NCBI GenBank assembly: GCA_022779345.1
Contig: JALFTG010000004.1
Coordinates: forward strand, 1-40,235
Direction: 5' to 3'
Length of the DNA: 40,235 nucleotides
From: Oscillospiraceae bacterium
GTDB taxonomy: Bacteria > Bacillota > Clostridia > Oscillospirales > Oscillospiraceae
The position numbers and the translations under genes were made by a program. Below, piece after piece: positions 28,644-38,652 of the stretch (position 1 is its first letter; each line of letters begins with the position of its first letter). The notes below the pieces were generated by a model. The model worked only from the letters and a program-made list of their open reading frames with translations. It was not told the origin of the DNA and ran no database searches.

Positions 28644-30373
28644 CGTTTCAGAGACTCCGCATACTCCACAAATTTGTCAACCTTGCCCCGGCATTCGTCC
28701 ATGCTCTCGCCCCGGGCCAGGATATACACCTTGATCTTCGGCTCAGTGCCGGAGGGACGGACAATGAAGGAGGTGCCGTCGCCCAGCTCAAAATACAGCA
28801 CATTGGAGCCCTTCATTTCCATGGTCTCCATGTTGCCCAGACCGGTGACATACACACTGCCGTCCTGATAATCCCGCATCCGCAGAACCTTTTCCCCGCC
28901 GATGACTTTGGGGGGATCCTTCCGCAGGTCGGCCATGATGGCCTGCATATTCTTCAGACCGTCCAGGCCGGGCATCACCAGGTTGATGGTCTTTTCGGCG
29001 AAGCAGCCGTATTTCTCATACAGGGCGTCCATAGCCTGCTTCAGGGTCATGCCCTTGTCGTAGTAGTAAGCGGCCATTTCCGCCACCATGACGGAGGCGG
29101 TCACGGCGTCCTTGTCCCGGACGAAGTCGCCCAGCAAATAGCCGTAGCTCTCCTCATAGGCCATGATGCACTTATAGGTGCCCTCCCGCTCGAATTTGGC
29201 GATGCGCTCGGCCATGAACTTGAAGCCGGTGAAGGTCTCCTCCATGTGCACGCCGTTGGCCTCGCATACCACACGGGCCATCTCCGTGGTCACGATAGTC
29301 TTCAGGGCGGCGGCATTCTCCGGCAGGGTGCCGGCGGCCTTCCGGGCGGTGATGATGTAGTCCAGCAGCAGCACGCCCATCTGGTTGCCGGTGATGGGGA
29401 TGAACTGACCGTTCTCGTCCCGGACCATGACGCCGATGCGGTCGGAATCCGGGTCGGTGCCGATGATCAGGTCGCTGCCCTTCTCATTGGCCAGGTCGAT
29501 GGCCAGATAGAAGCCCTCGGGATTTTCCGGGTTGGGGCTGGCCACCGTGGGGAAGGTGCCGTCGGGGACCATCTGGGCCTCCACGGGGAACAGGTGTTTG
29601 ATGCCCAGCCGGTGCAGGGCTTCGGGCACCAGGATGCGTCCGGCGCCGTGGAAGGGAGTATAGACGATCTTCAGGTCGTCCGCCACTTTCTGCACCACTT
29701 CCCTGTTGATGGCCTGACCCAGGGCGCAGGCCAAAAACTCGTTGTCCGTCTCCTCGCCCATGAAGGTGACCATGCCGGCCTGCAGGGCCTCGTCAAAGGG
29801 CATGGTTTTGATGTCGTTGAAGATGTCGATCTTCTCCATCTCCGCGGCAATGGCGGCGGCGTGCTGGGGCGGCAGCTGGGCGCCGTCGGACCAGTAGACC
29901 TTATAGCCGTTGTATTCCTTGGGGTTGTGGCTGGCCGTGATGTTCAGTCCGGCGATGGTGCCGTACCGGATCACGGCAAAGCTCAGTTCGGGGGTGGGGC
30001 GCATACCGTCGGTGATGCGCACCTTGATGCCGTTGGCCGCCATGACGCCGGCAGCCTCCCGGGCAAAGGTCTCGCTGTTCACCCGGCAGTCATAGGCGAT
30101 GGCCACGCCTCTCTCGCAGGCGTCGCCGCCTTCCGCCTTGATCACATTGGCGAAGGCCTGGGTGGCATGACGGATGATGTGCACATTCATCCGGTGCAGA
30201 CCCACGGCCATCTCCCCCCGCAGGCCGGCGGTGCCGAACTCCAGGGGAGCGAAGAAGCGGCTCTCGATTTCCTTGTCGTCGTTTTCGATGGACTTCAGTT
30301 CCTGCCATTCCGCTTCGCTGAGAGCGGGACTGTCCATCCAGCGCTGGTACTCTTCCTTATAGGTTCTCATCAT
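28640..30373 (-). CDS. Phospho-sugar mutase (phosphoglucomutase/phosphomannomutase family)
   Basis: 577 aa; FGTAGLRGEMAVG, TASHNPKEYNGYKVY, GTDPDSDRIGV, RPSGTEPKIKVY. Confidence 0.95.
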   Translation of the reverse strand: MMRTYKEEYQRWMDSPALSEAEWQELKSIENDDKEIESRFFAPLEFGTAGLRGEMAVGLHRMNVHIIRHATQAFANVIKAEGGDACERGVAIAYDCRVNSETFAREAAGVMAANGIKVRITDGMRPTPELSFAVIRYGTIAGLNITASHNPKEYNGYKVYWSDGAQLPPQHAAAIAAEMEKIDIFNDIKTMPFDEALQAGMVTFMGEETDNEFLACALGQAINREVVQKVADDLKIVYTPFHGAGRILVPEALHRLGIKHLFPVEAQMVPDGTFPTVASPNPENPEGFYLAIDLANEKGSDLIIGTDPDSDRIGVMVRDENGQFIPITGNQMGVLLLDYIITARKAAGTLPENAAALKTIVTTEMARVVCEANGVHMEETFTGFKFMAERIAKFEREGTYKCIMAYEESYGYLLGDFVRDKDAVTASVMVAEMAAYYYDKGMTLKQAMDALYEKYGCFAEKTINLVMPGLDGLKNMQAIMADLRKDPPKVIGGEKVLRMRDYQDGSVYVTGLGNMETMEMKGSNVLYFELGDGTSFIVRPSGTEPKIKVYILARGESMDECRGKVDKFVEYAESLKR

Positions 30374-30671
30374 CGCTGTCCTCCCTCAATAATGATTTCG
30401 CGTCCTCGTACATGGATTCCGGCACGAACAGGTCCGCTCCGGTGACGCTGACGCCCATGATGATTTCTCCAAAATCTCCGTCATTGGAATTGCGCTGCAC
30501 ACAGGGGATGCCAAAGGAGCGGAGCATATTCATGCGGATGACATCCGCCATGTTGTCCCCCTCGCTGTGGCACAGAAAGACCGGCGGTTCCAGACTGCCG
30601 TCCTCCAGCCGGGGCCAGGCTGCCAGCGTGTCTCCCATGGACCGGCGGCCCCATTTTCCTTTTCCGAACAT
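30357..30671 (-). CDS. DUF2007-like putative signal-transducing protein
   Basis: 104 aa; VFLCHSEGDNMADVIRMNMLRSFGIPCVQRN...ADLFVPESMYEDAKSLLRE; RBS GAGGTGAG. Confidence 0.6.
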   Translation of the reverse strand: MFGKGKWGRRSMGDTLAAWPRLEDGSLEPPVFLCHSEGDNMADVIRMNMLRSFGIPCVQRNSNDGDFGEIIMGVSVTGADLFVPESMYEDAKSLLREDSDDENL

Positions 30672-30701
30672 ACGCTCACCTCAAAATCTAGTCGCTTTGC
30701 A

Positions 30702-30863
30702 ATCGCTTCACAGAATTTGTGCCGCAGGCACAAAGAAAATCAAATCCGTTTTTTTGTGCGGCTTCGCTGTGCTAAAAACACTTCCCGGCCAATGGAGTGT
30801 GCGAGCGAAGCGAGTGCATGGAATGGCCGCATCCCCTCATTCAAACCGGAAGGTTTGAATGAC
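30702..30863 (+). repeat. Intergenic structured repeat, copy B (full-length form)
   Basis: Shares cAGAATT..cCGCAG, aATCCGTTTTT, AAAACACTTC, GGAGTG.GCGAGCGAAGCG and CCCCTCATT blocks with copy C; predicted closing stem plus at least three internal hairpins and a terminal 10-bp perfect hairpin (30838-30861). Confidence 0.85.
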
Positions 30864-31346
30864 TTATTTATGGTATTTCCGTCCGGCGTTGATGGTGAAC
30901 GCCCGGTAGATCTGCTCGGCCAGCATCACCCTTGCCAGGTGATGGGGAAAGGTCATATCCGACATGGACAGCCGGAAGTCCGCCCGGCGCTTCACATCCG
31001 GGTGCAGTCCGTTGGAACTGCCGATCACAAAGCACACCTTGCTGGTGCCGGACAACGCCCGCTCCGCCAGCAGGGACGCCAGGCCCTCGCTGGACAGCTT
31101 CTTTCCCTCCACACACAGGGCGATCACATAGGCCCCGGCGGGGATCTTTTCCAGGATATCCGCCGCCTCCCGGGCCAGGGCGGCCTGGATTTCTTTTTCC
31201 CCGGGGTCGTCCCCGGTTTTCACTTCCGGGATCTCCGCGGTCTCGAATTTACAGAAGGCCGCCAAGCGCTTTTCATACTCCCGGAAGGCCTCGATATAGA
31301 ATTTTTCCCGCATCCGTCCGGCGCAGATCAGCTTTACCGTGAGCAT
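30864..31346 (-). CDS. rlmH: 23S rRNA (pseudouridine1915-N3)-methyltransferase RlmH
   Basis: MLTVKLICAGRMREKFY, FVIGSSNGL, SDMTFPHHLARVMLAEQIYRAFTINAGRKYHK. Confidence 0.97.
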   Translation of the reverse strand: MLTVKLICAGRMREKFYIEAFREYEKRLAAFCKFETAEIPEVKTGDDPGEKEIQAALAREAADILEKIPAGAYVIALCVEGKKLSSEGLASLLAERALSGTSKVCFVIGSSNGLHPDVKRRADFRLSMSDMTFPHHLARVMLAEQIYRAFTINAGRKYHK

Positions 31347-37215: not shown

Positions 37216-37920
37216 TTAATCCGCGAAATAGTAGCCCGCGCCCCGGCGGGTCATGATATACTCCGGCTCCGCCGGGTTTTTCTCCAGCTTTTCCCGGAAC
37301 CGGCGCATGGCCACATCCACCGTACGCATCTCGTCCTTGCTGAAATAGTCATACTGCCACACCCGCTGCATCAGCTCCTCCCGGGAAAAGACCTTGCCTG
37401 GTTCTGCGGCCATGAGCTGGAGGATGTTGTACTCCCGCTCGGTCAGCTCGATCTCCTTCCCGTCCCGGTACACCGTGTGCCGGTCGGTGTCGATGGTCAG
37501 GTCCCGCACATGGATGGTGTTGTCGTTCTTCTCCTCCTGTACGGCCATGGGCACGGACACCCGGCGGATGTTGGCCTTCACCCGGGCCAGCAGTTCCCGG
37601 ATGGAAAAGGGCTTGGTGATATAGTCGTCCGCACCGGTCTCCAGGCCGAACACCTTGTCCGTCTCATCCTCCCGGGCGGTGAGCATGATGATGGGCACAT
37701 TGTTCCCCTCATCCCGCAGGGCTTTGCACACCTCAAACCCGTCCATACAGGGCAGCATGATGTCCAGCAGGATGATGTCCGGGTCCTGCTTCCGGGCCAG
37801 GTCCAGGGCCTGCTTCCCGTCATAGGCCTCCAGGGCCTCAAAGCCGTTTTTTTCCAGATTGTATTTCAGAATGTCGACGATGGCTTTTTCATCGTCCACG
37901 ATCAGCACTTTCTTAGCCAT
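37216..37920 (-). CDS. walR: OmpR-family response regulator WalR
   Basis: MAKKVLIVDDEKAIVDILKYNLEKNGFE; LLDIMLPCMDGFEV; C-terminal winged helix YDYFSKDEMRTVDVAMRRFREKLE. Confidence 0.96.
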   Translation of the reverse strand: MAKKVLIVDDEKAIVDILKYNLEKNGFEALEAYDGKQALDLARKQDPDIILLDIMLPCMDGFEVCKALRDEGNNVPIIMLTAREDETDKVFGLETGADDYITKPFSIRELLARVKANIRRVSVPMAVQEEKNDNTIHVRDLTIDTDRHTVYRDGKEIELTEREYNILQLMAAEPGKVFSREELMQRVWQYDYFSKDEMRTVDVAMRRFREKLEKNPAEPEYIMTRRGAGYYFAD

Positions 37921-38458
37921 TGCGTTCCTCCAGCACTCTCGCGGCCTTCAGCACGGCGATGTTGGTCTTGCCGTCCTCCAGTTCGCCCCGCATACACTGC
38001 TCCACCAGTTCTTTCAGCGGATGGCGCTCCACATTCAGATATTCTCCCGCGTCCGGATGTGCTTCATGCTGGTGCAGGCCCAGGGCCAGATAGATGTGCA
38101 GCACCTCCGTGCAGTATCCGGGAGACGCCAGACTGGCGCCCAGGTCGATCAGCTCATCGCACACAAGACCCGTCTCCTCGCTCAGCTCCCGCAGCGCCGC
38201 AGAGCGGGGCTCCTCCCCCGGCTCCAGTTTGCCCGCCGGGGCCTCCAGCAACATCCGGCCGAAGGGATAGCGGAACTGGCGCACCAGATAGGCCATGCCG
38301 TTTTCATCCACGGGCAGCACCGTCACCCCGCCGGGGTGATGGACCACCTCCCGCTTCACCCGCTCCCCGGTATGCAGCGCCGCATTGTCCAGCGTGACCT
38401 CCACGATCACGCCCTTATATTTTGTCTCTCCGTCAATTTTCGTCTCGTAATACTCCAT
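37913..38458 (-). CDS. NUDIX hydrolase (ADP-ribose pyrophosphatase type)
   Basis: APAGKLEPGEEPRSAALRELSEETGL Nudix box; start MEYYETKID at 38458. Confidence 0.93.
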   Translation of the reverse strand: MEYYETKIDGETKYKGVIVEVTLDNAALHTGERVKREVVHHPGGVTVLPVDENGMAYLVRQFRYPFGRMLLEAPAGKLEPGEEPRSAALRELSEETGLVCDELIDLGASLASPGYCTEVLHIYLALGLHQHEAHPDAGEYLNVERHPLKELVEQCMRGELEDGKTNIAVLKAARVLEERNG

Positions 38459-38493: not shown

Positions 38494-38652
38494 GCTTCGC
38501 AGAATTCGCATCCGCAGATGCGAACAAATCTCAATCCGTTTTTCGCGCAGCTCCGCCGCGTGAAAAACACTTCTCGCGGAGGGAGTGAGCCCCAACGGGG
38601 CGCGCGAGCGAAGCGCAGCCCCTCATTTCAAAGGTCTTTGACCTTTGAAACG
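38494..38652 (+). repeat. Intergenic structured repeat, copy C (full-length form)
   Basis: GCTTCGC (38495-38501)/GCGAAGC (38609-38615) closing stem; hairpins 38506-38525, 38540-38568, 38569-38588, 38590-38602 and terminal 11-bp perfect hairpin 38627-38651. Confidence 0.85.

Follow-up and report, generated by a model that had tools for sequence, protein, structure and literature searches.

According to published reports, staphylococcal IS1272, a member of the IS1182 family, targets terminator stem-loops, which are deleted or replaced rather than duplicated (PMC4923244, PMC5678879); in one published model stem-loop duplication is one outcome, obtained when the 5' feet are attacked (PMC5678879). 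The repeat described here resembles IS1182-family insertion sequences, IS1272 included (transposase NF033551), in its terminal repeats, in its terminator-hairpin targets and in hairpin duplication (as at the insertion-sequence loci L378 and L379), but it carries no transposase and has a folded core that is missing from the six IS loci checked; it further differs from staphylococcal IS1272 in that the targeted hairpin is duplicated. The bcr1-bcr3 elements of the Bacillus cereus group are MITE-like, being small, intergenic, high-copy and non-autonomous, and often lie in UTRs or intercistronic regions (PMC3446304). The present repeat is also small, intergenic, high-copy and non-autonomous but has other ends and another host group, and the duplication of terminator palindromes and a multi-helix core that covaries across genera are, as far as checked, particular to it. 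With REP/BIME sequences and their RAYT partners it has in common multicopy extragenic palindromes near gene ends, but it is much larger, has terminal inverted repeats, duplicates its target and has no matching Y1 partner. The repeat is likely to be a MITE-like non-autonomous element, in which IS1182-type ends surround a folded core of ~136 nt and which is mobilised in trans.

The window, a stretch of 40,235 nucleotides from an Oscillospiraceae draft genome (GCA_022779345.1, contig JALFTG010000004.1), contains two copies of the repeat, B and C, both intergenic, hairpin-rich and, as an earlier note on this DNA had recognised, homologous to each other (121.8 and 104.6 bits by covariance model). 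Because the third-ranked place scores only 16.4 bits, the window holds two copies and not the three that the note proposed to model. The features of the two copies and their neighbours are as follows.

30681..30862, plus strand: copy B, whole insertion, delimited by comparison with the empty site of two congeners
30705..30840, plus strand: copy B, conserved structured core (covariance model R2, 121.8 bits; R1, 136.4 bits)
30707..30715, plus strand: copy B, helix H0, mini-hairpin TTC-ACA-GAA; the column 3-11 pair is C-G, T-A or A-T across genera, 99.1% paired
30716..30734, plus strand: copy B, helix H1; 7/8 pairs with both-side changes, 99.4% paired
30748..30779, plus strand: copy B, helix H2, T-run/A-run stem; 11/12 pairs with both-side changes
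30786..30829, plus strand: copy B, helix P4 (CGGCC/GGCCG), enclosing P5; 6/6 pairs with both-side changes
30798..30818, plus strand: copy B, helix P5, with conserved tandem U.G/G.U wobbles (wobble counts) and a GA/GA internal loop
30838..30861, plus strand: copy B, terminal hairpin H4, variable in sequence and flush with the rlmH stop codon (sequence and distance statistics)
30864..31346, minus strand: rlmH, upstream neighbour of copy B (NCBIfam NF000985, 181 bits)
30357..30671, minus strand: short ORF downstream of copy B, no NCBIfam match
38494..38626, plus strand: copy C, structured core (R2, 104.6 bits); site empty in loci L406 and L407
38626..38650, plus strand: copy C, terminal hairpin H4 (sequence)
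37913..38458, minus strand: Nudix-type hydrolase gene, left of copy C (profile search)

The earlier observation was right and understated. A search with a covariance model made from 49 copies of the own genome, of the kind the note had suggested for the host and its relatives, gives 76 hits in the 1.92 Mb host draft genome (67 above 70 bits; about 70 good copies), and blastn with either B or C as query finds at least about 40 places each. Copies occur in 24 of 60 genomes in a sample of relatives, mostly of the same family, which also yielded one high-copy genome from another family of the order and a few weak matches; in a class-wide sample of 147 genomes the positives lie in the own family only. 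Many other Oscillospiraceae carry the repeat, with copy numbers from 0 to >50 per genome between genera, and exact-pattern matches fall in Oscillibacter and other Oscillospiraceae MAGs. Complete replicons with copies include Vescimonas fastidiosa pMM35_01 (860 kb, 40 hits) and Pusillibacter faecalis pMM59_01 (1 hit). Two copies, one with a duplicated terminator, lie on the gut phage contig MT835961.1, and phages may therefore carry the element between hosts; a 15-nt degenerate pattern proved unselective against viral contigs. A lone exact 19-nt core match outside Oscillospiraceae, in Bdellovibrio bacteriovorus NZ_CP102930.1, is probably due to chance. The statement that no named RNA family is recognisable holds against Rfam, where neither gathering nor permissive thresholds gave a match, and no description of the repeat was found in the open-access literature, as far as partial coverage extends. 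A fixed orientation to the replication fork was rejected, as copies alternate in orientation along long contigs.

The core comprises H0, H1, H2 and P4 enclosing P5, with the hairpin H4 at the terminus. Of the helices proposed in the note, H1, H2 (TTTTT...AAAAA) and the terminal hairpin are real, their both-sided changes lying far above shuffled and slid controls. The proposed closing stem GCTTCGC/GCGAAGC is not supported, its 3' side falling in a variable GNA loop (e.g. GCGCAGC, CCGAAGG) while its 5' segment instead forms H0, a small covarying 3-bp hairpin (YTC-GCA-GAR) absent from the note. Nor is the CACTTC/GGAGTG hairpin supported: although its sequence is conserved, sets of 49 and of 38 sequences contain no both-sided change in it, and another helix competes with it. 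Among the own-genome copies 97.2% of cells are paired, and both-sided change affects 125 cells, compared with 33 in shuffled and 5–14 in slid controls. The cross-genus alignment was fitted to the covariance model, which favours structure; it has both-sided changes at 30 of 34 pairs and a covariation score of 0.515 against 0.156 (sd 0.008) when shuffled, all these tests ignoring kinship. The covariation thus exceeds both kinds of control, as for a structured RNA. P5 retains a U.G wobble in 47 of 49 own-genome copies (37/44 sequences across genera) and a G.U wobble in 41 of 49 (30/44), and G.T mismatches outnumber A.C both within P5 (136 versus 3) and outside it (19 versus 5). The plus strand is therefore the folded strand, the sense that the note had favoured and that the covariation also supports. 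That the shape of the core is kept while its letters change is unusual for a MITE-like element. On V. fastidiosa pMM35_01 the distal P5 and H4 stems are swapped wholesale among otherwise similar copies (e.g. TGAGCC/GGCTCA, TCCGTC/GACGGA, TGCCGC/GCGGCA), which suggests that copies exchange modules or that their stems turn over very fast.

The element measures ~185 bp, has no coding capacity and is dispersed in many copies, as is characteristic of a MITE. Terminal inverted repeats are present in the terminator subfamily (CAG.TTGTCGAAAAA / GAGTCTGTCGGAAAA); the left end of the intact-end subfamily reads CAG[CT][TC]TGTC[GA]AAAAA, and the right end consists of H4 followed by TTTTTCGACAG and about four bases. 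Twenty of 73 own copies have a near-identical stretch on both flanks, with scores of 36–68 compared with a maximum of 32 among the 1022 mismatched pairs of the null (duplications being called at ≥36), and most duplication-bearing copies have the left end CAG..TTGTC.AAAAA and the right end ..TTTTCCGACAGACTC. Apart from C28/L021, whose 32-nt stretch scarcely folds, and L013, where the match is imperfect, the duplicated stretch is a terminator-like palindrome, and the 31 duplicated pairs from the own genome, V. fastidiosa and the phage contig have a mean folding energy of -20.8 kcal/mol compared with -6.5 kcal/mol for controls. In clear cases such as L014, L024 and L128 an A-run precedes the left terminator copy only and a T-run follows the right copy only. 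Terminator duplication recurs in V. fastidiosa and in other genera (L102, L106, L107, L111, L121); in copies B and C neither clean IS1182 ends nor a target duplication is evident. In some cases (IS copy L379 at G090:C44, own copies L018 and L088, and V. fastidiosa L319) the flanking terminator copies agree in their arms and carry the loop in reverse complement, the outcome that template switching or hairpin flipping would produce. V. fastidiosa also has deletion derivatives with little beyond H0/H1 and H4 (pMM35_01 near 289631, 311056, 318776, 401038 and 421942; pMM35_02 at about 566–657), some with junctions inside repeated motifs such as GCAGAC, and in own copies L008 (C88) and L010 (C46) a second partial 5' motif, GCTTCGCAGAAATTAGC, directly precedes the full element, perhaps as a nested or tandem start.

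The ends of the repeat are shared with autonomous IS1182 elements in other genera of the same family (L378, L379, L381, L400, L146). Four loci (L146, L378, L379 and L380) encode an IS1182 transposase (NF033551, 377–389 bits; cut-off 270), and IS1182-family transposases, fragments or distant relatives were found in 22 of 201 family genomes. At L378 a perfect 31-nt terminator palindrome stands on both flanks of an element with the terminal inverted repeat TCAGTTTGTCAAAAAA, and at L379 a 33/35 flanking duplication with inverted loop surrounds an element with the terminal inverted repeat CAGACTGTCGAAAAAC and, at its right end, a hairpin that resembles H4. A palindrome immediately precedes L381 and L400, and the left end of L381, TCAGCTTGTCAAAAAA, is identical over 16 nt to that of own copy L016. 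The core motif was found in none of the six IS1182 loci checked; the element thus has the appearance of a foreign folded core placed between IS1182-type ends. The PF13751 profile at first spoke against IS1182, being absent from high-copy genomes, until the element ends at the few loci with a match overturned this. It has no match in G000–G003, the host and its congeners among them, and a transposase homologue is likewise missing from G000–G002, the host assembly being a fragmented draft (93% complete); nor does it match in most high-copy genomes, nor was a longer autonomous element with the core or ends found on 850 kb of V. fastidiosa, which yielded deletion derivatives only. We therefore infer the partner from other genera.

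Mobility of the repeat is seen at empty sites. In two congeners (L403/L404 in G001/G002) the next gene begins within a few bases of the rlmH stop codon and the element is absent, whereas in the host about 182 bp (30681–30862) separate the two. Copy C is absent from the divergent promoter region of both congeners (L406/L407), and at the site of a terminator-type copy a third congener (L413) has the orthologous gene end with one terminator and no element. Presence is thus polymorphic at orthologous sites, and since B and C are both missing at the same junctions in congeners, they have no essential local role. Insertions fall into two classes, with contexts taken from a simple ORF caller and neighbouring gene calls that are approximate. 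For terminator-type copies the gene context is mostly convergent or mixed. Non-terminator copies, B included, are found mainly within operons (30 antisense to both flanking genes versus 6 sense, p = 7e-5), with the H4 end usually a few bases from the upstream stop codon, diverged ends and no detected hairpin duplication. Copy B is flush with the stop codon and antisense to its flanking genes; copy C has the ends of the non-terminator class, yet is located between divergent genes.

These observations bear on what moves the repeat and on what maintains its fold. The note had offered a structured RNA or a REP/MITE-type element, and of these the MITE-type reading is supported by copy number, empty sites, the terminal repeats shared with IS1182 and the target duplications; REP in the RAYT sense drops out for want of a consistent Y1 partner. 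Movement as single-stranded DNA by a Y1 transposase, as for REP/RAYT-like or IS200/IS605-derived elements, would suit the many hairpins, the GNA triloops and the single folded strand, but Y1 chemistry fits neither target duplications nor terminal inverted repeats, and several high-copy genomes (G001, G002, G003, G008, G028, G035, G042) have no Y1 match by Pfam profile. By the same profile, a Y1/RAYT partner shows no correlation with copy number and was rejected, and we regard such an origin as very improbable. Mobilisation of the repeat is probably the work of an IS1182 transposase, to judge from the shared ends, and the non-terminator copies may have arrived by it too. Acting in trans, an IS1182-type transposase would recognise the element ends and attach them to a terminator hairpin, once extruded, at its feet, and the whole hairpin would then be duplicated on both sides. 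As this leaves a terminator at each flank, insertion would be mild.

The fold is open to more than one reading. Selection on structure, as the note had proposed, is supported by the covariation and the excess of G.T over A.C mismatches but is not proven, since template switching between palindrome arms can also yield paired changes (PMC8794818, PMC8604942). A purely mutational origin by this route, with no structure selected, would concern the fold only and be compatible with a mobile element; it would account for the wholesale stem swaps among similar V. fastidiosa copies and for the inverted terminator loops of 3 of 31 pairs and of IS copy L379, as expected (PMC8604942). However, arm correction would erase the conserved P5 wobbles, G.T exceeds A.C outside P5 as well, and the pairing of P4 spans about 40 nt, with a further hairpin inside. 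The wobbles argue against template switching as the sole cause, an explanation that we find doubtful, although it could have contributed in part. A host-beneficial structured RNA or mRNA-processing element (a 3' UTR stabiliser or an intercistronic processing site), spread by an IS and kept locally by selection on expression, would be in keeping with the covariation at 30 of 34 pairs, the operon orientation bias (30 versus 6, p = 7e-5) and the position of H4 flush with the stop codon. This bias, however, places the minus strand in the mRNA while the wobbles mark the plus strand as folded, B and C are absent from the same junctions in congeners, and copy number ranges from 0 to >50 between genera, all of which render a host function improbable. 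With less certainty than for the MITE-like element itself, we infer that the plus-strand fold is under selection in single-stranded form, probably as RNA and less likely as single-stranded DNA. It would serve the spread of the element and not the host, since operons are depleted of sense insertions and species can do without individual copies. It is conceivable, if unlikely, that the core is an independent mobile structured RNA with captured IS1182 ends, whose plus-strand fold would be needed to spread, for example in transposase binding or trans regulation; to our knowledge no transposon-borne RNA module of this kind has been described for IS1182.

The MITE-like element is thus an apparently undescribed high-copy repeat of common gut bacteria, tied to a family of transposases whose targeting of hairpins is poorly understood, and its dozens of natural insertion sites show that the duplicated target can be an entire terminator. 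It offers a natural test case in which a conserved fold in a mobile repeat may be attributed to selection on RNA or to template-switch mutation. Finally, it explains intergenic 'covariation' in the family Oscillospiraceae, a signal that might lead RNA-discovery pipelines to call a riboswitch or sRNA in error.
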